A stretch of DNA of 64,000 nt from NCBI RefSeq assembly GCF_022810765.1, contig NZ_CP094494.1, positions 2,170,001-2,234,000 on the forward strand, in the 5' to 3' direction. The DNA comes from Winogradskyella sp. MH6 (GTDB lineage Bacteria > Bacteroidota > Bacteroidia > Flavobacteriales > Flavobacteriaceae). The notes beneath the pieces are model-generated. The model was not told where the DNA came from. It ran no database searches and was given only the letters and a program-made list of their open reading frames with translations. The first letter of the stretch is position 1. Every line of letters starts with the position of its first letter. Below are positions 26,666 to 54,258 of the stretch, in pieces. Made by a program: the position numbers and the translations under genes.

Positions 26666-26742
26666 ACACTAGACACTAGACACTAGACACTAGACACTAG
26701 ACACTAGACACTAGACACTAGACACTAGACACTAGACACTAT
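26666..26742. repeat. 7-bp minisatellite (ACACTAG), ten perfect copies plus one variant
   Basis: The unit ACACTAG starts at 26666 and recurs every 7 bp through 26735, then a variant ACACTAT (26736-26742). The uvrB stop (TAG on the minus strand, 26739-26741) lies in the variant unit. The 80 bp to the left hold degenerate relatives such as AGTGTA and AGTATAAAG. Confidence 0.95.
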
Positions 26743-28745
26743 TTCACTTTTAGCTTTTCTAGTTTTTCTTGATAAGCTGTAATTTCATCTCTAAATTTAG
26801 CCGCTTCCATAAAGTCTAATGCTTTTGCGGCTTGTTCCATTTGCTTGCGCTTTTCTCTTATTTTCTTTTCGAGTTGAGCCTTAGTTAGGTATTCGCTTTC
26901 TGGTTCTGCTGCTAATTTGGCATCGAGTTCTGTTTTGTATGTGCTAACAGAGTTTTTAGCTAAAGCGCTGTCTAAACTTTTGTTTAATGCCTTTGGTGTT
27001 ATGTTATTTACTGTGTTGTAAGCAATTTGCTTTTCGCGTCTGTAATTAGTCTCGTCTATGGTTTGTTGCATACTCTTGGTAATAGTGTCTGCATACATAA
27101 TCGCTTTACCATTTAAGTTTCTCGCTGCTCTACCAACAGTTTGGGTTAGAGAACGATTAGAACGTAAAAAACCTTCTTTGTCAGCGTCTAAAATAGCCAC
27201 TAAAGAAACTTCAGGTAAGTCTAAACCTTCTCGCAATAGGTTAACACCAACCAAAACATCAAAAATTCCTTTACGTAAATCTTGCATGATTTCAACACGT
27301 TCTAAAGTGTCTACATCACTGTGAATATAACGACAACGAATGGCAATGCGTGTTAAGTATTTTACCAATTCTTCTGCCATACGCTTTGTTAATGTTGTAA
27401 CTAAAGTACGTTCGTCTTTTTCTACACGCTCTTGTATTTCTTCAATTAAATCATCAATCTGATTTAAGCTAGGACGTACCTCAATAATTGGATCTAATAA
27501 GCCTGTAGGTCTAATGACTTGCTCAACGTAAACTCCATCTGTTTTTTGTAATTCGTAATCGGCTGGAGTAGCTGAAACATAAATGACCTGATTTTGCAAC
27601 GCTTCAAATTCTTCAAATTTTAAAGGTCTGTTATCCATGGCAGCAGGCAATCTAAAACCGTATTCTACCAAATTTTCTTTACGACTTCTATCACCACCAT
27701 ACATGGCATGCACTTGCGAAATGGTAACATGACTTTCGTCTACAACCATTAAATAATCATCTGGAAAATAGTCAAGCAAACAGAACGGTCTTGTGCCAGG
27801 AGCTCTGCCGTCTAAGTATCTCGAATAATTCTCAATCCCAGAACAATAGCCTAACTCACGAATCATCTCAAGGTCAAACTCAGTTCGTTCTTTAAGACGT
27901 TTGGCTTCTAAATGTTTGCCTATATCTTTAAAATAATCGTGTTGTTTTACTAAATCATCTTGTATGTCTCTAATGGCATTTTGCAGCACATCAGGTGAGG
28001 TTACAAACATGTTGGCTGGATAGATATTTAGACGATCATAACGCTCAATCACTTCATTAGAATACGGATCAAAGGCTTCAATTTCTTCAATCTCATCTCC
28101 AAAAAAATGAATTCTGAACGCATTGTCAGAATAACCAGGAAAGACATCTACAGTATCTCCTTTTATTCTAAAGTTTCCGTTTTTAAATTCGGCTTCCGTA
28201 CGAGAGTATAAACTTTGAACTAACTGATGTAAAAGTTTGGTTCTTGAAATGACCTGATCGCGCTCTAGTGTGATTACGTTTTTTTGAAATTCAACAGGAT
28301 TACCAATACCATACAAACATGACACTGATGCAACAACCAGCACATCACGACGTCCAGAGAGTAGAGAAGAGGTTGTGCTCAATCGCATCTTCTCAATTTC
28401 TTCGTTTATAGATAAATCTTTTTCTATATAAACACCAGAAACAGGAATATAAGCTTCTGGTTGGTAATAGTCGTAATAGGATACAAAGTATTCAACAGCA
28501 TTATTAGGGAAAAACTGTTTGAACTCAGAGTACAATTGCGCAGCTAAGGTTTTATTGTGCGCCAATACCAAAGTTGGTCGTTGTACTTCTTCTATGACAT
28601 TGGCAACGGTAAATGTTTTTCCAGATCCCGTTACACCAAGTAAGGTTTGGTAGCGTTCACCTTGTGTAATGCCACCAGCTAATTGTTTTATAGCTTCGGG
28701 TTGGTCTCCTGTAGGTTTAAATTCTGATTCTATCTTAAAGCGCAT
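26739..28745 (-). CDS. uvrB: Excinuclease ABC subunit B
   Basis: A 668-residue helicase-like damage-recognition subunit of nucleotide excision repair, full length. It has Walker A GVTGSGKTFT (about 39-48), the beta-hairpin region YYDYYQPEAYIP, the DESH box (VVDESHVT), motif VI QTVGRAARN, and the C-terminal UVR motif (about 630-665) that binds UvrC. Its C-terminal codons run into a 7-bp minisatellite. The -7 promoter box ends only 4 bp before the ATG, so its mRNA may be almost leaderless. Confidence 0.97.
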   Translation of the reverse strand: MRFKIESEFKPTGDQPEAIKQLAGGITQGERYQTLLGVTGSGKTFTVANVIEEVQRPTLVLAHNKTLAAQLYSEFKQFFPNNAVEYFVSYYDYYQPEAYIPVSGVYIEKDLSINEEIEKMRLSTTSSLLSGRRDVLVVASVSCLYGIGNPVEFQKNVITLERDQVISRTKLLHQLVQSLYSRTEAEFKNGNFRIKGDTVDVFPGYSDNAFRIHFFGDEIEEIEAFDPYSNEVIERYDRLNIYPANMFVTSPDVLQNAIRDIQDDLVKQHDYFKDIGKHLEAKRLKERTEFDLEMIRELGYCSGIENYSRYLDGRAPGTRPFCLLDYFPDDYLMVVDESHVTISQVHAMYGGDRSRKENLVEYGFRLPAAMDNRPLKFEEFEALQNQVIYVSATPADYELQKTDGVYVEQVIRPTGLLDPIIEVRPSLNQIDDLIEEIQERVEKDERTLVTTLTKRMAEELVKYLTRIAIRCRYIHSDVDTLERVEIMQDLRKGIFDVLVGVNLLREGLDLPEVSLVAILDADKEGFLRSNRSLTQTVGRAARNLNGKAIMYADTITKSMQQTIDETNYRREKQIAYNTVNNITPKALNKSLDSALAKNSVSTYKTELDAKLAAEPESEYLTKAQLEKKIREKRKQMEQAAKALDFMEAAKFRDEITAYQEKLEKLKVK

Positions 28746-28749
28746 AGCA

Positions 28750-28781
28750 CAAATTTACGATAAAGATTGGCAGTAATCAAT
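28750..28781 (-). promoter_or_regulatory. Promoter for uvrB
   Basis: The minus strand has ATTG (28778-28781) and TAAATTTG (28750-28757) separated by 20 bp. It partly overlaps the stop of the next gene upstream. Only 4 bp separate the -7 box from the ATG. Confidence 0.55.
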
Positions 28782-31135
28782 TAACGTTTTAAAGCGAAGT
28801 GACCTTTAATTTCGTAGTTTGAAGTGTCTAGTCTAAACTTTAAGATAAACCAATAATCGCTTGAAGGCATAGGATTGCCTTTATAATTTCCGTCCCAACT
28901 AAAACCACCAGAATAGGATTGCAGCATTATTTTTCCGTAGCGATCAAAAATCTCTAAGCTTTCAATTTGGTTGAGATTTGTATTGGTGCCAACAATTTGC
29001 CAAGTGTCATTAACATCATCACCATTTGGTGTAAAGAATTTTGGGATACCGACTATTGTTATGGTTTCTTCAACGATGCCACAGCCATTCCTATCATTTA
29101 TATAAATCGTATGCTCACCTTCAGGGACATTAGTAAATACATTGCTTTCTTGGTAAAAGCCATTTATATCGTCTATGGCATAATCGTAAAAGCCTGAGCC
29201 AATAACATTAACGGTAATTGTATTATTTGGCGAAATACCTTCAATGGAAATACTTTCAACAATAGCAGTTTCAGATGCATTTACTGTTAGTGTTCGGCTT
29301 GATGAACAACCGTTAGGATCGGTTACAATTACCGTGTAGTTTCCGGCTTCATTGATGTCATTAAATGAGGTGTCAACATCTGTCAAAGCACCATTAAAGT
29401 ACCACTCATAGTAGTAATTGTTTGGTAAATCATTTAAAACTCCACCATGAAGTGTAATAGTTTCAGGAAACGTATTTGTACAATAAATTAAGGTTTCGTC
29501 TGCTTCTAATACAGGAGTGTAAAGTACATTCAGATTTGCTGTTGAAATGCTAAAACACTGATTATCGTTTTTAATTTTTACAAAAATGGTTTGTGTATCA
29601 GCTGTTATGTTGGTGTAATTATTTGGTAAAGAATTACTTTCGTTTAGCGCATCATCAAGATTTTCAAAATAACTTACTTCAGATCCTGTGGGAATTTGAG
29701 CGATAATGGAAGCTTCAATATTGCTCAACGTGAATGTGGCAAATCCATCCATTTCCATGCCATCACAAGCTCCCAAATCTGGAATTGAAATTATAGTATT
29801 TGTAGTTTGCAATTCTAGAGCAACAACATCAAAACAATTTGCAGTATTAACAACACGTGCAAATACATTTTGAAAGGCTTCCGTATTTTGAAAACTTATT
29901 GGATCAGTTATAGGGTTGATATCATTTAAGGCATCATCCTCCGTTAAGAAGAAATTTGAAACAATTAAATCATTGTTGTTAATGGTTAAATCACTCTCAG
30001 CATCAAACAGATTGTAAGTTGTTAAACCATCAGTATCTACATCGCATTCCGTTAAAATTGAGTCTTGACCGAGTGGGACAGGAGCGTATTCGACAATAAT
30101 GTCTCCGTAGGAAATACAGTCATCTAAAATAGTGACTTCAACGTTGTAAGTTCCAGGTTCTGTTACTGTATAATATCCGCAGTTTAAACAGTTAGGTGTT
30201 GTTTCTTGTAAAACACCATCTTTGTACCAACTATATGAACTTAACGAGGGATTATTAGCATTAAGCTCTAAAGTTTCGCCTTCGCACAATGCATTTCCAG
30301 TAGCAATAAGTCTGTTTGGACCTAAATCTGTAGATAATTGAAAGCTACCAGCCTCAAGAAAAACAGCTGAGTCGTAACGATAATTTTGCTCGTCTGCAAT
30401 AACAAGCTTTACATGATATGACTGATTGGGAACCACATTTGCTGTGGCAGTTAAAACAGCTGTTTGACCATTAAAGTTTATTGGTGAATTAGTTCCATTG
30501 TATGAGCCGAAGTAGATTTCGTTTTGAGGAGGACAAGATCCAGGAACACCAGGAGTCACAGTTGTTACTTTTACAGGAATAGTAGTGTCCGGTACTAAAG
30601 CAATATTCTCGTATTGATTTTGGCTAGTTGTAGGTCGGATTAAAAAGCCAAATAAATCGGAATACTCACAACTATTAGAATTGTTTTCTTGATACTCTTC
30701 TGAAGCAAATAAATAACGGAAACTAACCTGTGATGCAACAGCAGTAAAATCGAATTCTAATATTGTGGCATTATAAGTTTGGTTTTCATTTAATGCAGTT
30801 TCTAAATCTATGTCTCCAGCCCAATTTGCTGCGTCATCATCACTTAAACTATCGTTTGGACCAGGTACATTTATAAGCCTACCAGTGCTTAAAACTATAC
30901 CGCTTTCAAAAGGAAAACTTGTTCCTGTGGCATCAAAATAGCCATAGCTTTGATCATTACCTCCAAAATCACCACCAACAACATTGGTTACATTAATATT
31001 GGTAATGCAATTACTATCAATTAATATATCTTCTATAAGTTGCTGTGGAGTATAGGTTTGGCTATCTACAACAATATTCTGCGAGTACGTAGATAGAGAA
31101 ATAAAAAAAGCGACTAATCTTAATATCTGCTTCAT
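28781..31135 (-). CDS. T9SS type B secreted protein with choice-of-anchor L domain, 784 aa
   Basis: Called from the ATG at 31135, where a signal peptide begins (MKQILRLVAFFISLSTYSQ); the frame extends 7 codons to a TTG that lies in a TATCTTTG box. Domain order: signal, choice-of-anchor L (about 25-270; FESGIVLSTG, FRYLFASEEYQE), an Ig-like module (about 275-345; SWYKDGVLQ), two copies of the ~90-residue Cys-repeat (CDVDTDG, CDGMEMDG), a second Ig-like module, and a T9SS type B sorting domain (last ~85 residues; PKFFTPNGDDVNDTW, IFDRYGKI, GWDGNYKG). It is the shortest anchor-L member of the seven-gene cluster. Exported by the type IX system and probably held at the cell surface; the ligand is unknown. 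Confidence 0.9.
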   Translation of the reverse strand: MKQILRLVAFFISLSTYSQNIVVDSQTYTPQQLIEDILIDSNCITNINVTNVVGGDFGGNDQSYGYFDATGTSFPFESGIVLSTGRLINVPGPNDSLSDDDAANWAGDIDLETALNENQTYNATILEFDFTAVASQVSFRYLFASEEYQENNSNSCEYSDLFGFLIRPTTSQNQYENIALVPDTTIPVKVTTVTPGVPGSCPPQNEIYFGSYNGTNSPINFNGQTAVLTATANVVPNQSYHVKLVIADEQNYRYDSAVFLEAGSFQLSTDLGPNRLIATGNALCEGETLELNANNPSLSSYSWYKDGVLQETTPNCLNCGYYTVTEPGTYNVEVTILDDCISYGDIIVEYAPVPLGQDSILTECDVDTDGLTTYNLFDAESDLTINNNDLIVSNFFLTEDDALNDINPITDPISFQNTEAFQNVFARVVNTANCFDVVALELQTTNTIISIPDLGACDGMEMDGFATFTLSNIEASIIAQIPTGSEVSYFENLDDALNESNSLPNNYTNITADTQTIFVKIKNDNQCFSISTANLNVLYTPVLEADETLIYCTNTFPETITLHGGVLNDLPNNYYYEWYFNGALTDVDTSFNDINEAGNYTVIVTDPNGCSSSRTLTVNASETAIVESISIEGISPNNTITVNVIGSGFYDYAIDDINGFYQESNVFTNVPEGEHTIYINDRNGCGIVEETITIVGIPKFFTPNGDDVNDTWQIVGTNTNLNQIESLEIFDRYGKIMLQSYSGGFSWDGNYKGNPMPSSDYWFILKFRLDTSNYEIKGHFALKR

Positions 31136-31153
31136 CTCAATTTTTAGCGAATG

Positions 31154-31161
31154 CAAAGATA
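31154..31161 (-). promoter_or_regulatory. -7 promoter box (TATCTTTG) for the 784-aa T9SS gene
   Basis: The minus strand matches TAnnTTTG, 18 bp upstream of the ATG at 31135. It contains the TTG that would start the longer frame. Confidence 0.55.
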
Positions 31162-31201: not shown

Positions 31202-34200
31202 CTAACGTTTTAACGCAAAATGTCCTTTAATTTCGAAGTAGTTGTCGTTTTGTCTCACTTTGGCGGTGTACCAATAGTCACCAGCAGGCATAGGATTACC
31301 GTTGTATGAGCCATCCCAACCAGGAGAAGTATGTAAGAGCGTTTTCAGCAGTTTGCCGTACCTGTCAAAAATATAGATTACTGTACCAGGAAGCGTTTCG
31401 ACACCAGTAATATGCCAGGTATCGTACAGACCATCACCATTAGGAGACATATGCTTAGGAGTATCAATCACCAAGACCTCTCTGGTAATCTGAGCGCAAC
31501 CATTCTGATCAATAATGGTTACGGTATTGTATCCAATAGGCACATTGTAGAAGGTTCCCGAAGTCTGAAACGGCTGGTCGTTTAATTGATAGAGATAATT
31601 ACCAATACCAGTCACCGTAACGATAATATTGTTAGGGTCGGCAAAATTAACGGTCTCGACAACATCAATTTCAGCAGAGTCAGATTCCGTTACAGAAAAT
31701 GTAGATGTGGTTTGGCAACCAAATTCATTGGTTACGGTTACAGAGTAAGACCCAATAGATGTAATTTCAATAGAAGAAGCAGTTTGATTTGTAGACCACT
31801 CATAGCTATCCAAAGGATTGTTGGTTTCCGCAGAGACGACCAAAGGAAAATCGTTGAGACAAAGCACCTGATCATCAATAGCTACAAAAGGTTTGTCATT
31901 TATAATGACCGAAAATTGTGTGGTGCTGAAACAACCCGTCACACCATTATCAACCCTTGCAAAAATAATCTCATTGTTTGAAGCTACATATGGATTGGCT
32001 AAGCTGTTGCTGTTTTCAATAACATCAGCTTCAGAAGTAAAATAACTCACTGAGAACTCATCAGGATTTTGACCTAAAAGAATAGAAGCGTCTTGTTGCG
32101 ATAAATCAACGAGTAATAACCCATCAAAATCATCATCACATTCTACTATGTTATCAGGTTGATTGGCAACAGGAAGTGAATTAACGCGTAATTCAAAAGG
32201 ATAAACCGCATAACAACCTGTGGTAGTATATTCAACTCTTGCTACGAGATTTTCAATAGTATTTGTATAGATGTAATCTGTACTTAAAGCATTATTATCA
32301 TTTTCGGCATCGTCTACAGTTTGGTAATAACTGATTAAAACATTGAAGGTATTATCAACCAACAACAAATCAATATCGTGCAAGTCTATAGTATTGGTAT
32401 CATTATCACAGATATCATAAATACCAAACTGATTGATTTCAGGAGGAGAGTTGACAATCAGCTCAAAAGGAACAACTGAGAAACAATCCGTAGTGGCATT
32501 ACGAACTCTAGCATACACTGTCTCAGGGCTACTGGTATTTGTATAAGCCATAGGATTGCCAATAGCATTCACATTATTCTGCGCATCAATTTCGGAATTG
32601 AAATAAGTAAAGTCAATATTGTACTGTCTACCATCTAAAATGTTGAGTTCAATTTCAGTTAAATTCCATTCAACAGAAGTATCAAAATTATTACCACAAG
32701 CCACCAAGGATTGTCCATAAGTTACCTCAGGCAAGGAAAGGGTATTGATGTTAAAAGTCTCAACATTATAGCAACCAGAATTGGCATTTTCAATTCTGGC
32801 ATATATAATCTGAGGATTCGTTGTTGCCGTGTGATTTAACGCAATGGCATTGGTGCCAACTTCAGCATTTAGAGGTGTTAGGTGAAACGATACATTGAGA
32901 GGAGTGGTACTACCAAGTTCAATTTCGTTGATAGTATTGCCAAGGTCAGTTGTTGCCAGACCAGTATTATTAACATCGCATTCAAAAATATCTGTAGGAA
33001 TATTGTAATCTGGTGTTTCCCTTACCTCAATAACCATAGGAGCTACTTTAAAACAACCGTTTTCAGCTTCATTTTCGAGCCTAACGTAAATAGTCTGAGG
33101 ATTGGAAACGTTAAAGTAAGGCACTGTTTTGTCAATGGCATTCTCTCTGTCAATGGCATCGTCTTCGGTTTCAAAATAGAGGACTTGCATACCTTGTTGA
33201 TTGCCGATGATGGAAGCATCATTATCTTCAAAAATAAACTCAGAAGACACGTTAGGATCAACTTCACAATTGATAAAGTTAGAAACGGTATCTAATTGTG
33301 GGTCTGCGTAGATGAGGATGTCAAAGTTTAGAATACTAAAACAGTTTTCAGACTCAATTTCAGCTCTTATAAATATTTCCTTGCTTGAGGTGTTGTAATT
33401 GCTTGGGTTTGTTATGGCTAAATCTTCATGTAGCTCATCTATAGCATCATCAAAAGACTCATAAAATGAAAAAGTAACATCTGGATTATTCGCATAAAGA
33501 TCAACTAAAGTATTTTCTAAGTTAATAGTAGACCATAAATCTTGATCTTCATCACAAATTATTAAAGGTTCTGGGTTACTTGCCTCAATAGCAGAAGTAA
33601 TATTAAACTCTAATGTGGTAATGTCATAACAACCAGTAAATGCATTAGTTGCCCTAATAAATAAAGATTGTCCAATACTTAAATTGTACGTTTCTTCTAA
33701 TGGGTTGGATAAATTTTCAGCATCCTCAAATGTTTCATAGATGTTTACATTAGCAATAATATTGTAAGTATTTGCAAAATCTTCTCGAATGTTATCAGTA
33801 ATGGTTTCTAAAATTACGGTTGTAGTATTTGTATTTGGATCTGTATTTCCACAATAATCTATTGAAACAGGATCTAAATTTATTGTAGGAATTACATCAA
33901 AATTCACTTTTGAATTTATTCTACATGAAACAACTCCATTAAAAGTATAATAAGCATCTATAAACAATTCATCTTGACTGGTTGCAGTAAAAGGAATAGA
34001 TTGGTCTATAGCATTAACTCCATTACTTCGGTCGTCTTCTGTGAGGTAATATGCTAAATATACATTTGAGGAATAGTCTGCATCTATATTCTCCAAAAGT
34101 TCTTCTCTTATGTCATCAAAGCTGAAATCTTCAATACCATCGTTAGACTGATCGTCGCATTTAGTAATGGTGTTTTCTGGCCCAATAACTTCATAGAGGT

Positions 34201-36106
34201 AATTTTTGTATAGTCTAAGAGTTACAGGGCTGTAGCAGTTACCATTATCAAAAGACACTGCCAATGGAATAGTAAATGTAGAATTTTGCTCTAAAGTATA
34301 GGACATTGGGTTGCCTAAAAACATTAAAGCGTTTAATCTAACAGAGGATCCAGGGAATATGGATGTTTCAATAAGGTCAAAATAACCTTCGATATCAAAA
34401 AACACAGGTAGTGTGCTATATGTATAGTCTATATCATCAATAGTTCCCTCAAAATCTGGATCAACACACGCATCTAAGATTAGTGTATCAGTATATAAAT
34501 CAGGTGGTGTGATATAGTCAAAGTATATATATCCCAAAGAGAAGCAGCTATTGGTTTGGTTATTAAACTCAACTCTTGCGACAATATATGATGGTTCTTC
34601 ACTAAAACTTGGAAACTCTGTAATTGGATTAACATTGTTTGTAGCATCTTCTTCGTTCAAAAAATAGGTGACAGTTCTTTCTAATTCACCATCGGCCATT
34701 ATAATATTAAACATATTGAGATTAGAAACACCAGGATCAGCAATAGTATCATTACATACAAAAAGTGAAAAATCACCTGTACTTGGAGTTGCACTTACTG
34801 TAACGTTAAAACTTCCAATTTGTAAACAGTCACCATTCAAGCTTTCAATTCTAACAAAAATGATTTCTTCCTGTTCTGTGTTTTGGTATATGCCAACCAG
34901 AGGGTTAAGGTTATTTTGAGCATCATCTATACTTAAATGATAAGAGATGTTATAATTGTTAGAAGGTAACTCAGCTAAAATCTCATCATTTTTTAATAAC
35001 GGAAAATCAAACTGATAAATCCCATCGCTAGGTGCAGGATCACAGACAGAGAGGTCTTCAATAGGCGCAGCTTCTTGATAAGGGATGATCTCGATCTCAA
35101 TGCTATCTTCTAGTACACAGTTGTTCGTAGAACTAGGAATGGAAATTTCAACACTATAAGAACCCGATTGGTCAGCCAGTAGTGTAGGATTGGTTTCACC
35201 AGTAATGAGATTACCATCTAAAAACCATGAATACACAGCCGAAGGATTGTCAATCTCGGCATCTAAGGTTAAGTTACTACCACACACCGATTGGTCTGGT
35301 CCAAGATCTATAGAGCCACCAAAACCTTCTGCTTCAATAAATACGGCAGAATCAAAACGTTGGTCGATATGGTCAGCAATTACAAATTTAATTTCATAGA
35401 CCTCGTTAGGTATAACTTCGGCATTAGCCATTAATACGGTAGTTTGACCATTGAAGTTAGTTGCAGGCAGGTTATAGCCCTGAAAATAATCTTCGTTAAC
35501 AGCCTCACAAAATCCATTGATGTTTGGGTGAATGGTATAGGTGCTTACTTCGGTAGTTGTATCTGGAACCAATGCAATGTTAACAAAAGGGTCAGCACTA
35601 CCAGCAGGTCTTATGAGAATAGCAAATACATCTTGAAAATTACAAGGGTATTCTTGCTGGTATTCATCTGAAGCGAATAAATATTTAAAAGCTACAAAGT
35701 TATTAGCGGTACTAAAATTAAACTGAATGGAAGTAGCATTGAGTGTTCGGTCAATACCGAGAACGTTCAACACATCAGGATCGGTTTCCCAATTGATATT
35801 ACCATCATTAAGATTGTCTGTTATAACCGAGTTACCAGCATTTGTTATGCTTCCTGTAGATAAAACGATACCGCTTTCTAAAGGAAAACTGGAAGTACCT
35901 CTGTCAAAATTTCCATAGCTTATGATATTGTTTACGCTACCATTATAAGGTGATGAAATATTGTTTACAGTAGCACAATTGTCACCTACCAAATTTTGGA
36001 TAAGTTGTTGCGGAGTAAGTGTGTTGTCCGTAACAATCTGTTGTGAAAACAAAAAGTTTACAAATAACAAAAAGAGGAGAAGAGTATGTGTTCTATTCCT
36101 TGTCAT
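31202..36106 (-). CDS. Giant T9SS type B repeat protein, paralogue A (1634 aa)
   Basis: Signal peptide (1-21, FLLFVNFLFSQ), choice-of-anchor L domain (about 28-262; LESGIVLSTGSIT, FKYLFASDEYQ), an Ig-like module (about 265-335), eleven copies of a ~90-residue repeat (about 345-1405), another Ig-like module (SYEWSTNQTASSIEI), and a T9SS type B sorting domain (last ~88 residues; KHMSPNGDGLYDTW, GWDGSYNG, GHFALKR). Each repeat has a Cys-Asp loop at the start, YY..T..DA...NA in the middle, and IYARVEN....CY..  at the end. It is almost identical to paralogue B at both ends; repeats 2-6 differ strongly. Probably a surface adhesin or gliding-associated protein. Confidence 0.9.
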   Translation of the reverse strand: MTRNRTHTLLLFLLFVNFLFSQQIVTDNTLTPQQLIQNLVGDNCATVNNISSPYNGSVNNIISYGNFDRGTSSFPLESGIVLSTGSITNAGNSVITDNLNDGNINWETDPDVLNVLGIDRTLNATSIQFNFSTANNFVAFKYLFASDEYQQEYPCNFQDVFAILIRPAGSADPFVNIALVPDTTTEVSTYTIHPNINGFCEAVNEDYFQGYNLPATNFNGQTTVLMANAEVIPNEVYEIKFVIADHIDQRFDSAVFIEAEGFGGSIDLGPDQSVCGSNLTLDAEIDNPSAVYSWFLDGNLITGETNPTLLADQSGSYSVEISIPSSTNNCVLEDSIEIEIIPYQEAAPIEDLSVCDPAPSDGIYQFDFPLLKNDEILAELPSNNYNISYHLSIDDAQNNLNPLVGIYQNTEQEEIIFVRIESLNGDCLQIGSFNVTVSATPSTGDFSLFVCNDTIADPGVSNLNMFNIIMADGELERTVTYFLNEEDATNNVNPITEFPSFSEEPSYIVARVEFNNQTNSCFSLGYIYFDYITPPDLYTDTLILDACVDPDFEGTIDDIDYTYSTLPVFFDIEGYFDLIETSIFPGSSVRLNALMFLGNPMSYTLEQNSTFTIPLAVSFDNGNCYSPVTLRLYKNYLYEVIGPENTITKCDDQSNDGIEDFSFDDIREELLENIDADYSSNVYLAYYLTEDDRSNGVNAIDQSIPFTATSQDELFIDAYYTFNGVVSCRINSKVNFDVIPTINLDPVSIDYCGNTDPNTNTTTVILETITDNIREDFANTYNIIANVNIYETFEDAENLSNPLEETYNLSIGQSLFIRATNAFTGCYDITTLEFNITSAIEASNPEPLIICDEDQDLWSTINLENTLVDLYANNPDVTFSFYESFDDAIDELHEDLAITNPSNYNTSSKEIFIRAEIESENCFSILNFDILIYADPQLDTVSNFINCEVDPNVSSEFIFEDNDASIIGNQQGMQVLYFETEDDAIDRENAIDKTVPYFNVSNPQTIYVRLENEAENGCFKVAPMVIEVRETPDYNIPTDIFECDVNNTGLATTDLGNTINEIELGSTTPLNVSFHLTPLNAEVGTNAIALNHTATTNPQIIYARIENANSGCYNVETFNINTLSLPEVTYGQSLVACGNNFDTSVEWNLTEIELNILDGRQYNIDFTYFNSEIDAQNNVNAIGNPMAYTNTSSPETVYARVRNATTDCFSVVPFELIVNSPPEINQFGIYDICDNDTNTIDLHDIDLLLVDNTFNVLISYYQTVDDAENDNNALSTDYIYTNTIENLVARVEYTTTGCYAVYPFELRVNSLPVANQPDNIVECDDDFDGLLLVDLSQQDASILLGQNPDEFSVSYFTSEADVIENSNSLANPYVASNNEIIFARVDNGVTGCFSTTQFSVIINDKPFVAIDDQVLCLNDFPLVVSAETNNPLDSYEWSTNQTASSIEITSIGSYSVTVTNEFGCQTTSTFSVTESDSAEIDVVETVNFADPNNIIVTVTGIGNYLYQLNDQPFQTSGTFYNVPIGYNTVTIIDQNGCAQITREVLVIDTPKHMSPNGDGLYDTWHITGVETLPGTVIYIFDRYGKLLKTLLHTSPGWDGSYNGNPMPAGDYWYTAKVRQNDNYFEIKGHFALKR
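33326..34805 (-). other. Diverged central block of paralogue A (repeats 2-6)
   Basis: Compared with paralogue B by eye: DNA on both sides (31202-33325 and 34806-36103) is nearly the same as B, while this block aligns only at protein level, keeping motifs such as IDYCGNT and CDEDQD. The edges are sharp to within tens of bases. Confidence 0.75.
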
Positions 36107-36154
36107 AGCTTTTTTTTAAGGAGTAAAACAGTGCTACTATAATAATCCTATAAT

Positions 36155-36162
36155 CAAAGATA
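36155..36162 (-). promoter_or_regulatory. -7 promoter box (TATCTTTG) for paralogue A
   Basis: The minus strand matches TAnnTTTG, 48 bp upstream of the ATG. The same box in the same local sequence lies upstream of paralogue B at 41119. Confidence 0.5.
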
Positions 36163-36217
36163 GAAAAAATCTAATGTTTTCTTTAATATCGATAAATAAT
36201 TTACTGTATGTGTGTAT

Positions 36218-39200
36218 TTAACGTTTTAAAGCAAAATGCCCTTTAATTTCGAAGTAGTTGTCGTTTTGTCTCACTTTGGCGGTGTACCAATAGTCACCAG
36301 CAGGCATAGGATTGCCGTTGTATGAGCCATCCCAACCAGGAGAAGTGTGTAAAAGGGTTTTTATAAGCTTACCATACCTGTCAAAAATATAAATTACTGT
36401 ACCAGGAAGCGTTTCTACACCAGTAATGTGCCAGGTATCGTATTGGCCATCACCATTAGGAGACATGTGCTTAGGAGTATCAATCACCAAAACCTCTCTA
36501 GTAATCTGAGCACAACCATTCTGATCAATAATGGTTACGGTGTTGTAACCAATAGGCACATTGTAAAAGGTACCCGAAGTCTGAAAAGGCTGGTCGTTTA
36601 ATTGATAGAGATAATTGCCAATACCAGTCACCGTAATGATAATATTGTTAGGGTCGGCAAAATTAACGGTCTCGACAACATCAATTTCAGCAGAGTCAGA
36701 TTCTGAAACCGAAAATGTCGACGTGGTTTGGCACCCAAATTCGTTAGTAACCGTTACAGAATAGGATCCAATAGCTGTAATCTCAATTGATGAGGCGTTT
36801 TCATTGGTAGACCACTCATAGCTATCCAAAGGATTGTTAGTTTCGGCAGAGACGACCAAAGGAAAATCGTTGAGACAAAGTACCTGATCATCAATATCAA
36901 CAAAAGGTTTGTCATTTATAATGACCGAAAATTGCGTAATACTGAAACAACCCGTCACACCATTATCAACCCTTGCAAAAATAATCTCATTGTTTGAAGC
37001 TATATATGGATTGGCTAAGCTATTGCTGTTTTCAATAGCATCAGTTTCAGAAGTAAAATAACTCACTAAGAACTCATCAGGATTTTGACCTAAAAGAATT
37101 GAAGTGTCTTGTTGCGATAAATCAACGAGTAATAACCCATCAAAATCATCATCACATTCTACTATGTTATTAGGTTGATTGGCAACAGGAAGTGAATTAA
37201 CGCGTAATTCAAAAGGATAAACCGCATAACAACCTGTTGTAGTATATTCAACTCTTGCTACGAGATTTTCAATAGTATTTGTATAGATGTAATCTGTACT
37301 TAAGGCATTATTATCATTTTCGGCATCGTCTATGTTTTGATAATAACTAATCAAAATATTAAAGGTGTTATCAACCAACAACAAATCAATATCGTGCAAG
37401 TTTATAGTATTGGTGTCATTATCACAGATATCATAAACACCAAACTGATTGATTTCAGGAGGTGAGTTGATAATCAGTTCAAAAGGAACAACCGAGAAAC
37501 AATCCGTAGTTGCATTACGAACTCTGGCATACACTGTCTCTGGACTGCTAGTATTTGTATAAGCCGTAGGATTGGCAATAGCATTCACATTATTCTGAGC
37601 ATCATCTTCGGAATTGAAATAAGTAAAGTCAATATTGTATTGTCTGCCATCTAAGATATTGAGTTCAATTTCGGTTAAATTCCATTCAACAGAAGTGTCG
37701 TAATTATTACCACAAGCAACTAAGGATTGTCCATAAGTCACCTCAGGCAATGACAGTGTGTTGAGGTTAAAGGTTTCAATACTATAACAACCGGAATTGG
37801 CATTTTCAATTCTGGCATAGATAATCTGAGGATTCGTTGTTGCTGTGTGATTTAGCGCAATGGCATTAGTACCAATCTCAGCATTTAGAGGTGTTAGGTG
37901 AAACGATACATTGAGAGGAGTGGTGCTACCAAGTTCAATTTCGTTGATTGTATTGCTAAGGTTTGTTGTTGCCAGCCCAGTGTTATTAACATCGCATTCA
38001 AAAATATCGGTAGGTATATTGTAATCTGGTGTTTCTCTCACTTCAATTACCATAGGAGCTACTTTAAAACAACCGTTTTCAGCTTCATTTTCGAGCCTAA
38101 CGTAGATGGTCTGAGGATTGGAAACGTTAAAGTAAGGCACTGTTTTGTCAATGGCATTCTCTCTGTCAATGGCATCGTCTTCGGTTTCAAAATAGAGGAC
38201 TTGCATACCTTGTTGGTTACCTATGATTTGAGCGTCATTATCTTCAAAAATAAACTCAGCAGGCACGTTAGGATTGACTTCGCAATTGATAAGGTTGGAA
38301 ATGGTATTTAACTGTGGGTCTGCGTAGATGAGGACGTCGAATCGAAATACGGTAAAACAGCTCATTCCGTCAATCTCAGCTCTTATGAATATCTCTTTTG
38401 TGTCTGTAGTATAGTTTTCGGGATTTAAAATAGGATTTATATTATCTGCTGCATTGTTATAACTTTCAAAGAAAGAGAATACGAGATTATCAGTTCCGTC
38501 TGTAATTTCTGGAATAACACTCAGTAGATTAACATTGTAAAAGCCATCTTGATCCTCATCACATACAACAATAGGATTAGGATTTACCGCATTTATAGAA
38601 TTGGTTATGTTTACTTGAGCTGTCGTAAAGTTATAACATTGATTAGGAGAAAAAGTATCTGTAACTCGTACATAAAATTGCTGCTGGTCTCCATTTATGT
38701 CATACTCTTCTTCAAGGCGATTTTCTTGGTTTTCTGCATCTTCTTGAGTTAAGTATAACTCTACAGTTGTGGCCGAATTTAAGCTTGTATTTAAACTTAA
38801 ACGAATTTCGTCAATCAACGATGGAATTGAGACCGTTGTGGTATTTGTATCCAAGTTGGTGTTTCCACAATAATCTATTGTTACGGGTTGTGGATTAAAA
38901 AGTGGTTCAATTTCAAAAGATATTTTAGAATTATAAAAACAATCACCATAAGTAGACCTAATAAAAATACTTTGGTTATTTGCTACTGATATTGTAGAAC
39001 TAGGATCTATAGCATTACTTAGTAGTGTTCTGTCTTCTTCGGTTTCGTAATACGTAAGTTCTATGTCATCATAACCATTTTTTAGATCTTCAGTAATTTC
39101 AGCTAAATCTATATCAATAATTCCATCATTAGAAGCATCGTCACATTGAGAAATTAGAGTCTCTTCCCCTAAAACATTAAATAATAAGTTTTTGTGAATC

Positions 39201-41080
39201 TCTATGGATATGGTTTTTGGACAATTTTCATCAACATATCTAACAGTGATAGGCAAATTAAATACAGGGTCAGAAACATGTAAAATTGGGAAGTTAGGAT
39301 GGTCTAATATTCTTAATGCTAATATGGCTTCATATTCTGGATTAGCATCTATATAGGCATCTCTCATATCAATAGCATTATAATCTGTTGTTAAGCTGTA
39401 ATAGTCTACAGTTTCGCCATTTACTGTTTCGTTATAATTAGGGTCTATACAATGATTTATAATAACATTACTTATCTCTGGTGATGATACATAAGATAAA
39501 TTAACAGGTACAATTGATGGGCAACTATTAAAATCACTTTCTACGCGAGCAAAAAAGGCGTCTGGTTCATTCTCAAAGTCAGGAAAATCTGTGATAGAAT
39601 TTATAGTGTTTATGGCATCATCCTCAGTTTCGAAATAGGTAACAGTAGTATTATGCTGATAGTTAGATACGATAAAATCTAGAGCGCTTAGATCTGTGAA
39701 GGTTATTTCTGTTATGGTACCATTGCAAACTTCAACAGTAATTTCATTAGTTTCAGGTGATAAGTATACTGAAATATTAAAACTTCCAATTTGTAAACAG
39801 TCACCATTCAAGCTTTCAATTCTAACAAAAATGATTTCTTCCTGTTCTGTGTTTTGGTATATGCCAACCAGAGGGTTAAGGTTATTTTGAGCATCATCTA
39901 TACTTAAATGATAAGAGATGTTATAATTGTTAGAAGGCAACTCAGCTAAAATCTCATCATTCTTCAATAACGGAAAATCAAACTGATAAATCCCATCGCT
40001 AGGTGCAGGATCACATACAGAGAGGTCATCAATAGGTGCTGCTTCTTGATAAGGGATGATCTCGATCTCAATGCTATCTTCTAGTACACAGTTGTTCGTA
40101 GAACTAGGAATGGAAATTTCAACACTATAAGAACCCGATTGGTCAGCCAGTAGTGTAGGATTGGTTTCACCAGCAATGAGATTACCATCCAAAAACCATG
40201 AATACACAGCCGAAGGATTGTCAATCTCGGCATCTAAGGTTAAGTTACTACCACACACCGATTGGTCAGGCCCAAGATCTATAGAGCCACCAAAACCTTC
40301 TGCTTCAATAAATACGGCAGAATCAAAACGTTGGTCGATATGGTCAGCAATTACAAATTTAATTTCATAGACCTCGTTAGGAATAACCTCGGCATTAGCC
40401 ATTAATACGGTAGTTTGACCATTGAAGTTAGTTGCAGGCAGGTTATAATAACCCTGAAAATAATCTTCATTAACAGCCTCACAAAATCCATTGATGTTTG
40501 GGTGAATGGTATAAGTGCTAACTTCGGTAGTTGTATCTGGAACCAATGCAATGTTAACAAAAGGGTCAGCACTACCAGCAGGTCTTATAAGAATAGCAAA
40601 TACATCTTGAAAATTACAAGGGTATTCTTGCTGGTATTCATCAGAAGCGAATAAATATTTAAAAGCTACAAAGTTATTAGCGGTACTAAAATTAAACTGA
40701 ATGGAAGTAGCATTGAGTGTTCGGTCAATACCGAGAACGTTCAACACATCAGGATCGGTTTCCCAATTGATATTACCATCATTAAGATTATCTGTTATAA
40801 TAGAGTTACCAGCATTTGTTATGCTTCCTGTAGATAAAACGATACCGCTTTCTAAAGGAAAACTGGAAGTGCCTCTGTCAAAATTTCCATAGCTTATGAT
40901 ATTGTTTACGCTACCATTATAAGGTGATGAAATATTGTTTACAGTAGCACAATTGTCACCTACCAAATTTTGGATAAGTTGTTGCGGAGTAAGTGTGTTG
41001 TCCGTAACAATCTGTTGTGAAAACAAAAAGTTTACAAATAACAAAAAGAGGAGAAGAGTATGTGTTCTATTCCTTGTCAT
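36218..41080 (-). CDS. Giant T9SS type B repeat protein, paralogue B (1620 aa)
   Basis: Same plan as paralogue A: signal peptide, choice-of-anchor L, Ig-like module, eleven Cys-repeats, Ig-like module, type B sorting domain. The N-terminal ~435 residues differ from A at only a few sites (one extra Tyr in YFQGYYNLP against YFQGYNLP), and from about residue 940 to the end changes are mostly silent at DNA level. In between, repeats 2-6 have diverged to the point that only the repeat skeleton is shared. It has its own -7 box. The tandem arrangement with A indicates duplication in place followed by uneven divergence or gene conversion. Confidence 0.9.
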   Translation of the reverse strand: MTRNRTHTLLLFLLFVNFLFSQQIVTDNTLTPQQLIQNLVGDNCATVNNISSPYNGSVNNIISYGNFDRGTSSFPLESGIVLSTGSITNAGNSIITDNLNDGNINWETDPDVLNVLGIDRTLNATSIQFNFSTANNFVAFKYLFASDEYQQEYPCNFQDVFAILIRPAGSADPFVNIALVPDTTTEVSTYTIHPNINGFCEAVNEDYFQGYYNLPATNFNGQTTVLMANAEVIPNEVYEIKFVIADHIDQRFDSAVFIEAEGFGGSIDLGPDQSVCGSNLTLDAEIDNPSAVYSWFLDGNLIAGETNPTLLADQSGSYSVEISIPSSTNNCVLEDSIEIEIIPYQEAAPIDDLSVCDPAPSDGIYQFDFPLLKNDEILAELPSNNYNISYHLSIDDAQNNLNPLVGIYQNTEQEEIIFVRIESLNGDCLQIGSFNISVYLSPETNEITVEVCNGTITEITFTDLSALDFIVSNYQHNTTVTYFETEDDAINTINSITDFPDFENEPDAFFARVESDFNSCPSIVPVNLSYVSSPEISNVIINHCIDPNYNETVNGETVDYYSLTTDYNAIDMRDAYIDANPEYEAILALRILDHPNFPILHVSDPVFNLPITVRYVDENCPKTISIEIHKNLLFNVLGEETLISQCDDASNDGIIDIDLAEITEDLKNGYDDIELTYYETEEDRTLLSNAIDPSSTISVANNQSIFIRSTYGDCFYNSKISFEIEPLFNPQPVTIDYCGNTNLDTNTTTVSIPSLIDEIRLSLNTSLNSATTVELYLTQEDAENQENRLEEEYDINGDQQQFYVRVTDTFSPNQCYNFTTAQVNITNSINAVNPNPIVVCDEDQDGFYNVNLLSVIPEITDGTDNLVFSFFESYNNAADNINPILNPENYTTDTKEIFIRAEIDGMSCFTVFRFDVLIYADPQLNTISNLINCEVNPNVPAEFIFEDNDAQIIGNQQGMQVLYFETEDDAIDRENAIDKTVPYFNVSNPQTIYVRLENEAENGCFKVAPMVIEVRETPDYNIPTDIFECDVNNTGLATTNLSNTINEIELGSTTPLNVSFHLTPLNAEIGTNAIALNHTATTNPQIIYARIENANSGCYSIETFNLNTLSLPEVTYGQSLVACGNNYDTSVEWNLTEIELNILDGRQYNIDFTYFNSEDDAQNNVNAIANPTAYTNTSSPETVYARVRNATTDCFSVVPFELIINSPPEINQFGVYDICDNDTNTINLHDIDLLLVDNTFNILISYYQNIDDAENDNNALSTDYIYTNTIENLVARVEYTTTGCYAVYPFELRVNSLPVANQPNNIVECDDDFDGLLLVDLSQQDTSILLGQNPDEFLVSYFTSETDAIENSNSLANPYIASNNEIIFARVDNGVTGCFSITQFSVIINDKPFVDIDDQVLCLNDFPLVVSAETNNPLDSYEWSTNENASSIEITAIGSYSVTVTNEFGCQTTSTFSVSESDSAEIDVVETVNFADPNNIIITVTGIGNYLYQLNDQPFQTSGTFYNVPIGYNTVTIIDQNGCAQITREVLVIDTPKHMSPNGDGQYDTWHITGVETLPGTVIYIFDRYGKLIKTLLHTSPGWDGSYNGNPMPAGDYWYTAKVRQNDNYFEIKGHFALKR
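38341..39777 (-). other. Diverged central block of paralogue B (repeats 2-6)
   Basis: The counterpart of 33326-34805 in paralogue A. The flanking DNA on the right (39778-39930) is identical to A over about 150 bp before the first mismatch, so the switch from diverged to identical is abrupt. Confidence 0.75.
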
Positions 41081-41118
41081 AGCTAATTACAAAGGACTTG
41101 CTTTAAGTCCTTTATAAT

Positions 41119-41126
41119 CAAAGATA
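41119..41126 (-). promoter_or_regulatory. -7 promoter box (TATCTTTG) for paralogue B
   Basis: The minus strand matches TAnnTTTG, 38 bp upstream of the ATG. The surrounding TATAATCAAAGATAG is shared with the region upstream of A, although the rest of the two leaders differs. Confidence 0.5.
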
Positions 41127-41164
41127 GGAAAAAGCTTATGTTTTCTTTTAGATTAACTAACTAT

Positions 41165-44100
41165 TTAACGACGTATGGCGAAATGCCCTTTAACCTCAAA
41201 AGATTGATTGCCTCTTGCTACGTTAGCAACAAACCAGTAATCACTTGCAGGAAGTTTTAGACCGTTTAATGTACCATCCCAACCAGGACTATCGTGTCTT
41301 AAAGTTGCGAGATGCTTACCATAACGATCAAAAATATGAATAATGGTTCCAGGTAATGTTTCTACACCAACAATATGCCAAGTATCGTAGTGTCCATCAC
41401 CATTAGGAGACATATGTTTTGGAATATCTATTACTAAAACGTCTCTTGTAACTTCAGAACAACCATTTAAATCGATTATAGTCACAGTATGATAACCCAT
41501 ACCTACATTATCAAAAAAGTTAGATTCTTGTGGCTCACCATCATCTAATTGATAGAGATAATTTCCAATACCACTAATAGTTACTGTGATGTTATTTGGG
41601 TCTGAAAAGTCTATAACTTCTGTAGCCTCTATAGTTGCAGCTTCAGATTCTGCCACACTAAATACTCTTGTGTTTTCGCAACCAAACTGTGTAGTAACAG
41701 TAACCCAATAGGTTCCAATTTCTGGTATAGTAATTTCTGGCGTAGTTTCACCAGTAGACCAAATATATTGATCTGTAGGGTTGTTGGTGTTTGCAGAAAC
41801 AATTAATGGTAAATTATCTAAACAAATCACTTGATCTTGAATATCTATAACAGGTAATGGATGAATAATAACCAAAAACTGAGTTACAGCGTAGCAGCCA
41901 GTTGCGTTATTTTCAACTCTAGCATATATTATTTCAGAATCAAAAGCTATGTAATCTGTGTCTACAGCAGATAAATTAGTGTTAGCATCATCTTCAGAAT
42001 TATGGTAGGTTATTGTGAAATTAGAAGGGTTTTGCGTGCCTAGTATTTCAGCATTTTGTTGTGTTAAATCAAAATCTAACAATCCATCATAATCATCATC
42101 ACAAGCCTCTAAATTGGTTGGTTGATTGGCAATAGGAAGTGGGTTTACTTCAAGGTTAAATTCATACACCGTAAAACAATGCGTTGTGCTGAATTCAGCT
42201 CGCGCAAACAGTGTATCGTTATTGGTTGAATATGTGTAATCAGTACTTAATGCATTTTCGTTAGCATAGGCATCGGCTTCATTTGTGTAATAACTGAATA
42301 GCACATTAAAGCTTTCATCCATAATAACTTCATTAATCTCAGTTAAGTCGAAACTATTATTTTCATTTTCACATATATTGAAAGACTGAAAATCATTAAT
42401 AATAGGAGGCATGTTAACACTTAAATCTATTGGCACTAACACATAACAGTTAGAGATGGTGTTATTTATTTTAACATATACCGTTTGAGGATTGCTAGTG
42501 TTGGTATAAGCTTCTGGATTGGAAATAACATTACTGTTAGCTTCAGCATCCTCATAGTTTTCAAAATAGTTGATTTCTATATCGTCTTGTCTTACATCTA
42601 AAATGTCAAATTCGGCATTGGTTAAATCAAACTCAGTAAACCCATCATAATCTGTATCACAACCAATTAAAGGTACTGAAGGATTAACATCTGGTACTTG
42701 TACAACATTTAATTCAAAAGAAGTGATAGAATTACAAATTGTTCCATTATCAATTTGAACAAAAATAGTCTGTGGGTTTACAGTGTTAGTATATTCGAGA
42801 GGTAATGGGTCTATACTGTTTTCAGCATTATTTAATGAGGTGTAAAACGTTACACTTAAGTTGTCTGAAATTCCGTCTGATATTTCTGTAATCTTAGTTG
42901 ATAAATCAAAAGTTTCTGAACCATCGTTAGATATATCGTCGCAAACAAACCAATCTGAAGGCTCGTTATAGACTGGGTTTGTACCTACTTCAATAATAAA
43001 ACTAGAAGTGCCATAACAATCTTCATCTGTTAGATTTTCAACTCTTACAAAAATGGTTTGAGGAGTCGTAATATTTTGATAGGCTACATCTTTATCAATA
43101 GCATTGGTTCTGTTATCGGCATCTTGTTGATTTAAATAATAGGATACCACTTTGCCAGATTGACCATTTAAAATCTCAGCATCTTTTGTGTTGAAAATAA
43201 AGTCTGCAAAACCATCGCTACTATCCTCACAGATTTTGTAATTATCAATAGCTGTAAAAACAGGTAAAGTGTTTACTGTAATACTCAAGGTTTCAGTAGA
43301 ATGACAACCAGTATTTGTGTTTTCTACTCTAATGTAAATGGTTTCGGTTTGCGCATTATATATGCTTTCGTTGGTTATGGCATTACTGCCATTATCCGCA
43401 TCGGTTTGGTTGGTGTGAAAACTAATTTGTCTATCAGTTGTGCTACTAACTACTTCAGGAATAATATCTAATAGATTGATGGTAAATAATCCGTCTTGAT
43501 CATTATCACAAATCACAATATCGGAAGGAGGAGAAGTAACAGGAGCTTCTAAAACCGTAATTTCAAAAAAGTTAATATCGGAACAACCTGTTTCGTTTGA
43601 AGTTATTCTTGGATAAACTGTAAACGGGTTTGAAGTATTAGTGTAAAAGTTTGGAAGAACATTTGTATTGTTTCTGGCGTCATTTTCTGTTAAAAAGTAA
43701 GTAACGCTAAATCCATCTAATGCATCTGTAACTTGTGTGTCAAATTGAGATAAATCTGTTGTTGTAAAACCATCCTGGTCTTCATCGCAAACGGTTTGAC
43801 TTATTATGGATTCAAACTCATAGACAGGAATTAAAATTAAATCTATTTGCTCTACATCATAGCAGGTAGCACTACTTAATCCTAAATAAATAGTTTGAGG
43901 ATTACTAGTTGGTATAAATGGTGTGGTTTGGTCTAATGCATTTACCTGATTATCTCTATCGTCTTCAGTTAAGTAGAATTCAACAGAGATGGCAAATTCA
44001 TCTGGTAAATCATTTATAATACTTGTTGCAATACCTGAAAAATTAAATTCTTCAACTCCGTCATTGTCTATATCGCAAAGAGAGATATCATCAATATTTG

Positions 44101-53700: not shown

Positions 53701-54161
53701 GTTTCTTGGTAGATGTCTAATGGGTTGCCATCTTGGTCTACAGGCCCTTGATTTGGGTAAGCCCATGCGTTGTTGTGATGAGGTTCGTCTACCGTAAAGA
53801 TGTAATATAAATCATGGTTTGTTGGGTGAGGAACAATAAGACCAGAAGATGTGCTTGAAGGGTCGCCAAGTAAACCTGTACCTCCAAAATAATTACCGTT
53901 TGGCATAATTTGGTAGTTTCTATTCCAAACAGTTCTTCCATCTGTATAAAAAAGTAAATTTCCGCTTGGATCAGAGATTGAAGAACATCCTTCGTTTGTG
54001 CTTATTGTATTTATAGCAGAGTTAACAGAAGTAACATTACCTGTATTAACATCAAAAACCAATCCTGCACCATTTCCAAAATACCAATGAGAAGCTTCGC
54101 CTTGAGCTAACACAATTAAATTAAAAAGCAAAGCAAATAGTAAGGCGAATCTTTTTTTCAT
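50769..54161 (-). CDS. T9SS type B secreted protein with beta-propeller and PKD domain (1130 aa)
   Basis: Called from the ATG at 54161 (MKKRFALLFALLFNLIVLAQ, clear signal peptide); the frame runs 15 codons further to a TTG, which would bury the signal. Order: a WD40/PD40-like propeller (about 22-420; WYFGNGAGLVFDV, SSPDGSKLVICHN, SADSKKLYATH, LGPDGKVYITN), a PKD domain (about 440-520; WDFGDGTTSNEVNPNHTY), four Cys-repeats, an Ig-like module, and a type B sorting domain (PKFFTPNNDGTNDFW, GWDGTYNG, FSLKR). It heads a three-gene unit with the next two genes. The propeller-PKD-sorting plan is common in large gliding-associated proteins of this phylum. Confidence 0.9.
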   Translation of the reverse strand: MKKRFALLFALLFNLIVLAQGEASHWYFGNGAGLVFDVNTGNVTSVNSAINTISTNEGCSSISDPSGNLLFYTDGRTVWNRNYQIMPNGNYFGGTGLLGDPSSTSSGLIVPHPTNHDLYYIFTVDEPHHNNAWAYPNQGPVDQDGNPLDIYQETTNIGGTIPQDDDGFNNGLNYSLVDLTLNGGLGDVVPEEKNIHLITYNENDPVETAYKCAEKITAVEHADGTSYWLITQFINRFYAFRIDENGVNNTPVVSQITPLINTDGYRRNAIGYLKSSPDGSKLVICHNQNFNIPSVTQFSNNSGSVWLYDFNTETGVVSNPTNVLDNVVAYGADFSADSKKLYATHNGSVSQFNLEAADINNSQVVLYTNTGNRGAIQLGPDGKVYITNPSFISFMDVINNPEELGLACNYEENGISLAPGTSTRLGLPPFIQSFLIARIQSENTCLGDNTEFSITTSEEFNSILWDFGDGTTSNEVNPNHTYSNTNTYSVSATITTDSEVKTFVSPVTIHNIPTAFETTNMQDCGINGNGVSTFNLADKNTEILQNQDENLYDVRYFESFENAENLENEIVAPYTNTTNPQAIYARVENKSNTDCFDITTFNLEVFNTPQIVQLNNIEFCDDEGDVTDGFASIELGDLIPSIRGNQSETDTSITFHTTQQDADDNTASLPLTYATNSAEIFVRIENTNKTDCYSTESFLLTINDAPVANNISIVQCDEDGIPEGFTSFNINLFNDDVVNNEPNRSVSYYLSLVDAENEENEIDADAFENFFNPQIIYARVINTTTGCVSYSEVSLEVSTTSSNDTSILACDTDGTEDGFMAFNLTTSNPIILAGAPVGLDVEYYETYEDALLENNALSDTYTNTTPYNQIIYARVENSNSCYGISEVELIVNELPDIETEFETLYCLNSFPETIVLDAGIINDSPSNFTYSWSTTETTSTIEVNEPGTYTVSVFNSNNCSKQRTITVLPSNIATIDNIEVVDASNNNSITILVSGEGDYEYALDDIDGPYQDSNVFEDISPGLYTVFVRDKNDCGIADELVSVIGFPKFFTPNNDGTNDFWQVRGINNQFQANSLIFIFDRYGKLLTKLNPLSSGWDGTYNGANMPASDYWFKVELEDGRTFTSHFSLKR

Positions 54162-54258
54162 AACAATTTTGTTGTACAGCAATATACGTATAATACTATA
54201 TAACAACTAGAACTTAAAAACTCCTAGATTTAGTATTAAAACTACATAGCTATTACTA

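Follow-up and report, generated by a model that had tools for sequence, protein, structure and literature searches.

Probable recurrent partial gene conversion at both ends of two ancient tandem paralogues, halting at a five-repeat centre, in Winogradskyella sp. MH6

In this analysis of a 64,000-nucleotide stretch of the Winogradskyella sp. MH6 genome (hereafter the window), two adjacent giant genes, A and B, were found to be almost the same at both ends and deeply diverged in between, a pattern best explained, with high confidence, by recurrent partial gene conversion of the ends between ancient tandem paralogues that halts at a centre of five repeats. One tandem pair is thereby placed under two opposite regimes, with concerted ends and ancient, separately inherited centres, and the same edges are found in two species. 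The features on which the argument rests are listed below, where G000 denotes this genome, other labels beginning with G denote further genomes or their genes, and Am and Bm are the W. marincola orthologues of A and B.

26739..28745, minus strand: uvrB, flank of the array
28781..31156, minus strand: gene D, 791 aa, choice-of-anchor L domain plus type B signal, usual neighbour of the array
31202..36106, minus strand: gene A, 1634 aa, intact ORF, predicted type IX secretion cargo
31202..33286, minus strand: homogenised C-terminal part of A (codon 941 onward), which contains the secretion signal domain; dS 0.318 to B and 0.63 to the W. marincola orthologue
33296..34801, minus strand: diverged centre of A, type I, repeats 2-6; groups with Am, G083Ap and G011, then G027 and G080
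34805..36106, minus strand: N-terminal homogenised part of A, codons 1-434; dS 0.075 to B
36107..36217, no strand assigned: spacer between B and A, upstream of A, with its own TATCTTTG box (by eye)
36218..41080, minus strand: gene B, 1620 aa, intact ORF, tandem paralogue of A
36218..38302, minus strand: C-terminal homogenised part of B, from codon 927
38312..39772, minus strand: diverged centre of B, type II, repeats 2-6; groups with Bm, G001 and G068_1p
39776..41080, minus strand: N-terminal homogenised part of B, codons 1-435
41081..41164, no strand assigned: spacer between C and B, upstream of B, with its own TATCTTTG box (by eye)
41165..46000, minus strand: gene C, 1611 aa, the control, an older paralogue without homogenisation towards A or B

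Transcription on the minus strand runs in the order C, B, A, D, uvrB, in a genome consisting of one contig of 3.50 Mb, and six related loci were found in named genomes (five from Winogradskyella, one from Psychroserpens). Genes A, B, C and D each carry a choice-of-anchor L domain near the N end and a type IX type B signal at the C end. In gene A, NF038133 (choice_anch_L) covers residues 33-262 and TIGR04131 residues 1547-1634, both above cut-off, and gene B carries the same two domains (NF038133, 136.3 bits in A and 135.2 in B against a curated cut-off of 27; TIGR04131, 105.8 and 106.1 bits against 35, with PF13585 also over its cut-off). The genome encodes one SprA and nine PorP/SprF-like proteins over cut-off (ten PorP/SprF matches in all, none inside the window); with a signal domain and the translocon and shuttles of the host found, A and B are predicted type IX secretion type B cargo. 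The first 21 residues of A resemble, by eye, a Sec signal peptide. Between its ends, gene A holds a series of 11 repeats, each about 96 residues long and containing a cysteine pair spaced by 65-78 residues; one further cysteine pair lies ahead of the signal domain, and the same series of repeats and cysteines was present in all seven proteins examined. Among solved structures, the N part gave three weak matches, the best of them (E 0.016) over a 41-position stretch to a phage outer capsid protein; gene C gave no match at E 0.1.

Gene C is about 43-44% identical to A and B at the amino acid level. A DNA search of the whole genome with the C-terminal 666 codons of A returned five matches, all of them in the array or at 2220828 in gene H, and a genome search with the A and B centres matched A and B only (E 1e-50). 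The TATCTTTG boxes upstream of A and B are taken by us to match a promoter consensus; the A-proximal part of the 36107..36217 spacer is, by eye, unlike the sequence upstream of B. A cassette-type arrangement of silent partial copies and a single expression site was not found here, A and B being full genes with both end domains and an upstream box of their own.

Two-breakpoint segmentation of the site patterns of A, B, Am and Bm places the edges of the centre at A codons 432-438 and 928-940. The contrast between ends and centre described in an earlier note on this DNA is confirmed. Over the N-terminal 433 codons, where that note had claimed near-identity for about 435, the genes are 98.2% identical in nucleotides and 99.3% in amino acids (dN 0.003, dS 0.075). 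Over the C-terminal 670 codons they are 92.6% and 95.2% identical, with differences mostly silent (dN 0.023, dS 0.318), as had been noted for the last 690 or so. The centre, about 475 codons long and spanning repeats 2-6 of the 11 two-cysteine repeats, retains about 52% nucleotide and 38-39% amino acid identity with saturated dS, in agreement with the divergence of repeats 2-6 described before, whose boundaries lie within about 30 bp of ours. The switch is as abrupt as had been stated: where some 150 identical bp had been reported, 161 nt are identical directly N-terminal of the left edge, between differences at codons 380 and 434. The left edge falls between cysteines 427 and 451 of A and the right edge between cysteines 922 and 947. 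For the left edge only a position between paired cysteines is claimed, not a proven linker; a low-confidence structure model of A (residues 21-545, mean pLDDT 49.1, pTM 0.31), which was left unused, puts this edge inside a predicted strand. Neither edge showed a signal of site-specific recombination (identical-codon fraction in 10 windows, percentile ranks 0.01-0.86) or raised synonymous conservation.

The history behind this profile emerges from a second species. In W. marincola YYF002 (locus L074), the genes C, B, A, D and uvrB lie in the order of G000, and the orthologues Am and Bm are 90.7% identical to A and 90.1% identical to B. The 748 informative sites of A, B, Am and Bm group by genome in 274 cases, by orthology in 450 and crosswise in 24; under the best two-breakpoint split, the orthology pattern is found at 8 of 282 outer sites and 442 of 466 inner sites, with a gain in lnL of 372 against a maximum of 11.1 among 200 shuffles on a coarser grid, which excludes chance. 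Codons 20-434 of the N end hold 106 sites of the genome pattern and 2 of the orthologue pattern, and the edges lie at the same place in both species. Since the ends group by genome and the centres by orthology, as the comparison of the same locus in relatives called for earlier now shows, the ends must have been made alike after the species split, whereas the centres were inherited separately. Between G000 and W. marincola, the ends differ by a dS of 0.57-0.93 in any combination, and for A-Am the centre (0.62) is like the ends (0.63-0.82). Within genomes, dS is 0.075 at the N end and 0.318 at the C end for A-B, and 0.31 and 0.137, respectively, for Am-Bm; this opposite order in the two species means that N and C ends differ in age, which requires several events if rates are alike.

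Conversion tracts are seen directly in Am-Bm as long identical runs, one of 327 nt in the C end that none of 2000 shuffles reached and one of 126 nt in the N end reached by 9 of 2000. The signal is weaker for A-B in the C end (107 nt, 47 of 2000 shuffles), and the 209-nt run in its N end lies within chance given the few differences there (594 of 2000); no identical runs beyond chance occurred in the four orthologue comparisons (456-1726 of 2000 shuffles). Upstream of the start codon, A and B of W. marincola have about 40 nt in common that are unlike the version common to B of G000 and G001 (both by eye), which suggests that copying there may have run from A to B.

The two centre types extend well beyond these two species. 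In a genus survey of 68 genomes including G000 (E 1e-50), the B centre was matched in 25 genomes and the A centre in 24; the 25 genomes matching the B centre gave 37 gene rows, five of them partial (the W. marincola rows came from L074, and a G017 fragment was left out), with a median pairwise identity of 65% in the N part, 37% in the centre and 61% in the C part. Nine rows of the G000 species group cluster together in both the N-end and the C-end tree (SH-aLRT 100), and in the centre tree the same nine rows fall into three types shared with G011, G068 and G004; the opposite grouping was rejected in all seven AU tests (p 5.5e-4 to 2.8e-104), which used quick trees and one model, with groups named after the trees were seen. 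Whole-gene trees for genes of this kind are therefore mixtures. The A centre is 64.5% identical in amino acids to the single copy of G011, and the A ends are 65.4% and 60.4% identical to it, compared with 35.2% for the B centre and 66.8% for gene C between G000 and G011; the B centre is 63% identical to G068, for which the gene C value is 64.6%. Because these centre identities are close to those of gene C, both types are about as old as the respective species splits, and the identity of the A centre to distant G011 fits vertical descent. Judged by these identities, the split between types I and II (about 38%) predates those species splits.

Selection was estimated for the centres and for the ends. 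Orthologous centres have an omega of 0.092 (0.062-0.134) for A-Am and 0.101 (0.070-0.139) for B-Bm, compared with 0.048 and 0.032 for the N ends and 0.071 and 0.078 for the C ends. Over the four pairs tested, centre omega was 0.092-0.113, with bootstrap upper bounds of 0.134-0.192. In 42 windows of 25 codons (A-Am and B-Bm), each with too few sites to carry weight, omega exceeded 0.5 in two (A-Am, from codons 436 and 861) and four had no dS. Orthologous centres are thus less constrained than the ends, yet under purifying selection, so that the earlier proposal of diversifying selection on the centre is not supported, and the gap between the centre types is mainly a matter of age rather than of accelerated change. 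Gene C showed no collapse in its central third across ten species pairs; a milder central dip appears in distant pairs (62.4% vs 74.3% and 65.8% in G000-G011; 72.2% vs 85.5% and 79.0% in G004-G034), which indicates that in this family the centre is in any case under slightly weaker constraint. Between G000 and G083 (L090), gene C (41165-46000) has a dS of 0.32 in its central third and 0.92 in its last third, an unevenness that may be a sign of patchy between-species recombination in C too.

Sampling one genome per species, end homogenisation was found in six of the nine genomes with a compared pair. It affects both ends in G000 and W. marincola. In G034 there is a C-end tract from codon 1231 (dS 0.097) and in G074 one from codon 1301 (dS 0.032), against a between-species dS of 0.91-1.01, and the two tracts are shown to be independent. 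In G083 (MAG BWSM_129, a mixed MAG) 280 codons have a dS of 0.18 within the genome vs 0.43-0.54 to other species, and G004 has a weak tract near codons 1290-1530. In G002, G005 and G072 the pairs group by orthology at the N end, in the centre and at the C end, mixed windows being confined to the vicinity of codons 1203-1263; for G002/G005 the ratios of genome to orthologue sites in the three parts are 2:156, 12:328 and 32:227. Arrays outside the genus (G099, G199) are evenly or gradually diverged, and near-identical ends are absent from them. Conversion is accordingly recurrent but not universal, and its tracts vary between lineages. The earlier suggestion that gene conversion keeps the ends alike is upheld by the four-gene site patterns, by conflicting trees with AU tests and by the independent C-end tracts of G034 and G074. 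The other suggestion, that the centre was replaced, is not supported as a recent event: both types occur in W. marincola and in fragments of MAG BWSM_129, and they have diverged at about the species rate.

In G083, where both centre types are present as fragments, a B-type centre lies directly before D, the place of A in G000; this may be an assembly effect and, as the MAG holds parts of two genomes, it was not relied on. MAG BWSM_129 (L090-L092) seems to combine two genomes, since a second D gene and three pieces of A/B type are present in it; two of its contigs end within A/B-type genes.

Movement of whole B genes is a separate matter. Gene B of G001 (MAG SP247) differs from that of W. marincola by a dS of 0.285 (N), 0.118 (centre) and 0.19 (C), whereas genes C and D of the same two genomes differ by 0.741 and 0.708. 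Since B is far closer than C and D, B genes seem to move between species, and a recent exchange of B between the G001 and W. marincola lineages would be the simplest reading. To that extent, the B genes lend some support to exchange.

Direct repeats of 4.9 kb in tandem lend themselves well to homologous recombination. Under the conversion model, A and B would be an ancient tandem pair in which divergence of the five central repeats preceded the separation of the group's present species. Recombination between the two direct repeats, probably by ordinary machinery of the RecA type, would copy stretches of one gene's ends onto the other, repeatedly and separately in each lineage, with N and C ends overwritten recently and at different times. 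Tracts would halt at the centre, where at about 52% nucleotide identity recombination could hardly start or pass; the heterology itself would presumably act as the barrier, and selection against mixed centres may help to stop the tracts. The common ends would serve export and surface attachment, through the signal domain and a PorP/SprF-like shuttle, and the two centres may bind different partners.

Several other explanations have to be weighed against recurrent conversion. If a recent duplication of B had given rise to A, and a block from another species had then taken the place of A's centre, the resemblance of the A centre to distant G011 rather than to B would be accounted for; B genes also seem to move between species (G001, W. 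marincola). W. marincola, however, carries both centre types, in an identical order and with identical edges; between A and Am, dS in the centre (0.62) is close to the values for the ends (0.63-0.82); the 64.5% identity of the A and G011 centres matches the 66.8% of gene C, so that recent import is not needed; and two ends of differing age are impossible from one duplication. This account, largely refuted by the two centre types of W. marincola, is very unlikely. A centre that diverged in place by diversifying selection, with ends held by ordinary constraint, would fit the finding that the central repeats are the least conserved across 32 full-length genes (mean pairwise identity 0.31-0.45 vs 0.55-0.60 in other repeats) and that omega in the centre exceeds the N-end value by a factor of about two to three. 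It scarcely retains any plausibility, because at silent sites the ends resemble each other within a genome but not across genomes, orthologous centres show purifying selection (0.092 and 0.101), and type I is still 64.5% identical over the distance from G000 to G011; with omega at 0.092-0.113 in four pairs it was rejected. An artefact of assembly, with repeats collapsed or chimeric, has a negligible probability: near-repeats of 4.9 kb are difficult for short reads, there are MAGs among the relatives (G001, G083) and the G083 fragments end within repeats, but G000 is a single contig of 3.5 Mb, independent genomes show the pattern again with differing tract edges and ages, and collapse would not preserve two orthologous centre types.

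Cassette-type variation, in which constant ends act as homology arms and centres are swapped between copies, cells or species to yield new surface types, is improbable, though less so than the foregoing. It agrees with a centre that comprises complete repeats only and has both its edges between paired cysteines, with three centre types within one species group, with B genes of G001 and W. marincola far closer than C and D, and with the B-type centre of MAG BWSM_129 that adjoins D in the position of A (which may be assembly). Against it, both copies are complete genes with their own upstream box, G000 and W. marincola do not differ in the order of their centres, the edges show no raised synonymous conservation, and the centres are under purifying selection. 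A broader idea of modular surface display, in which conversion-kept export ends serve as homology arms and the five-repeat block as a swappable binding module, with homologous recombination passing a few retained, ancient module types between gene copies and between species of the genus, is put forward tentatively and is itself rather doubtful.

Partial concerted evolution of paralogous adhesins is already known from Helicobacter pylori, and A/B is a variant of that kind; the H. pylori pairs babA/babB and homA/homB are of the outer-membrane barrel type, and some Porphyromonas gingivalis surface factors are type IX cargo. As described in two reports, the 3′ segment of babA/babB and homA/homB is concerted within strains and another segment follows orthology, with six discrete alleles for the homA/homB middle (PMC2795765, PMC3960876). 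A/B resembles them in being paralogous predicted surface genes with one segment closer within genomes and another following orthology, but the 5′ segment of the Helicobacter pairs is not concerted (nor is the middle of babA/babB) and the genes occupy separate loci (PMC2795765, PMC3960876). The A/B pair is tandem and concerted at both ends, and what is protected in it is a central block of five whole repeats whose types are older than the species; concerted evolution of both ends, the whole-repeat block and the age of the centre types are what is new here. For surface factors of P. gingivalis, domain rearrangement and allelic exchange between strains appear in the excerpts of one report, which makes them, like A/B, Bacteroidota surface proteins diversified by recombination, although a tandem pair with homogenised ends is not seen in those excerpts (PMC5266723). 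With type B CTD cargo of the SprB type, A and B have the C-terminal signal family (TIGR04131) in common, and SprF/PorP-like proteins are described as shuttles for such cargo (PMC9143113, PMC12618676). The likeness is at the level of the family; A and B stand apart by their choice-of-anchor L domain at the N terminus, their series of 11 two-cysteine repeats and the lack of a PorP/SprF match in the window. Among titles and abstract openings, mostly outside subscription journals, no account of such a pattern was found for type IX cargo or for Winogradskyella, which is a weak negative.

Within a class of type IX cargo that has received little study, repeats 2-6 are the likely functional part. The domains expected to handle export and attachment sit in the ends and could be shared by both proteins, which would leave the centres free to differ. 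Lineages with tracts of varied age and length, together with some without, form natural replicates for asking whether divergence alone or selection stops conversion.

Two further observations concern the surroundings of the pair. The adjacent type B cargo genes at 48307-50772 and 50769-54206 have about 400 C-terminal residues in common (68-98% amino acid identity in 40-residue windows) and differ in their N-terminal parts, forming another partial paralogue pair. In several relatives (L036, L038, L039, L040 and others), the slot between the A/B genes and D holds a further, longer C-like gene, which is absent there in G000, W. marincola and G027 and encodes 2168 aa in G001 and G036.
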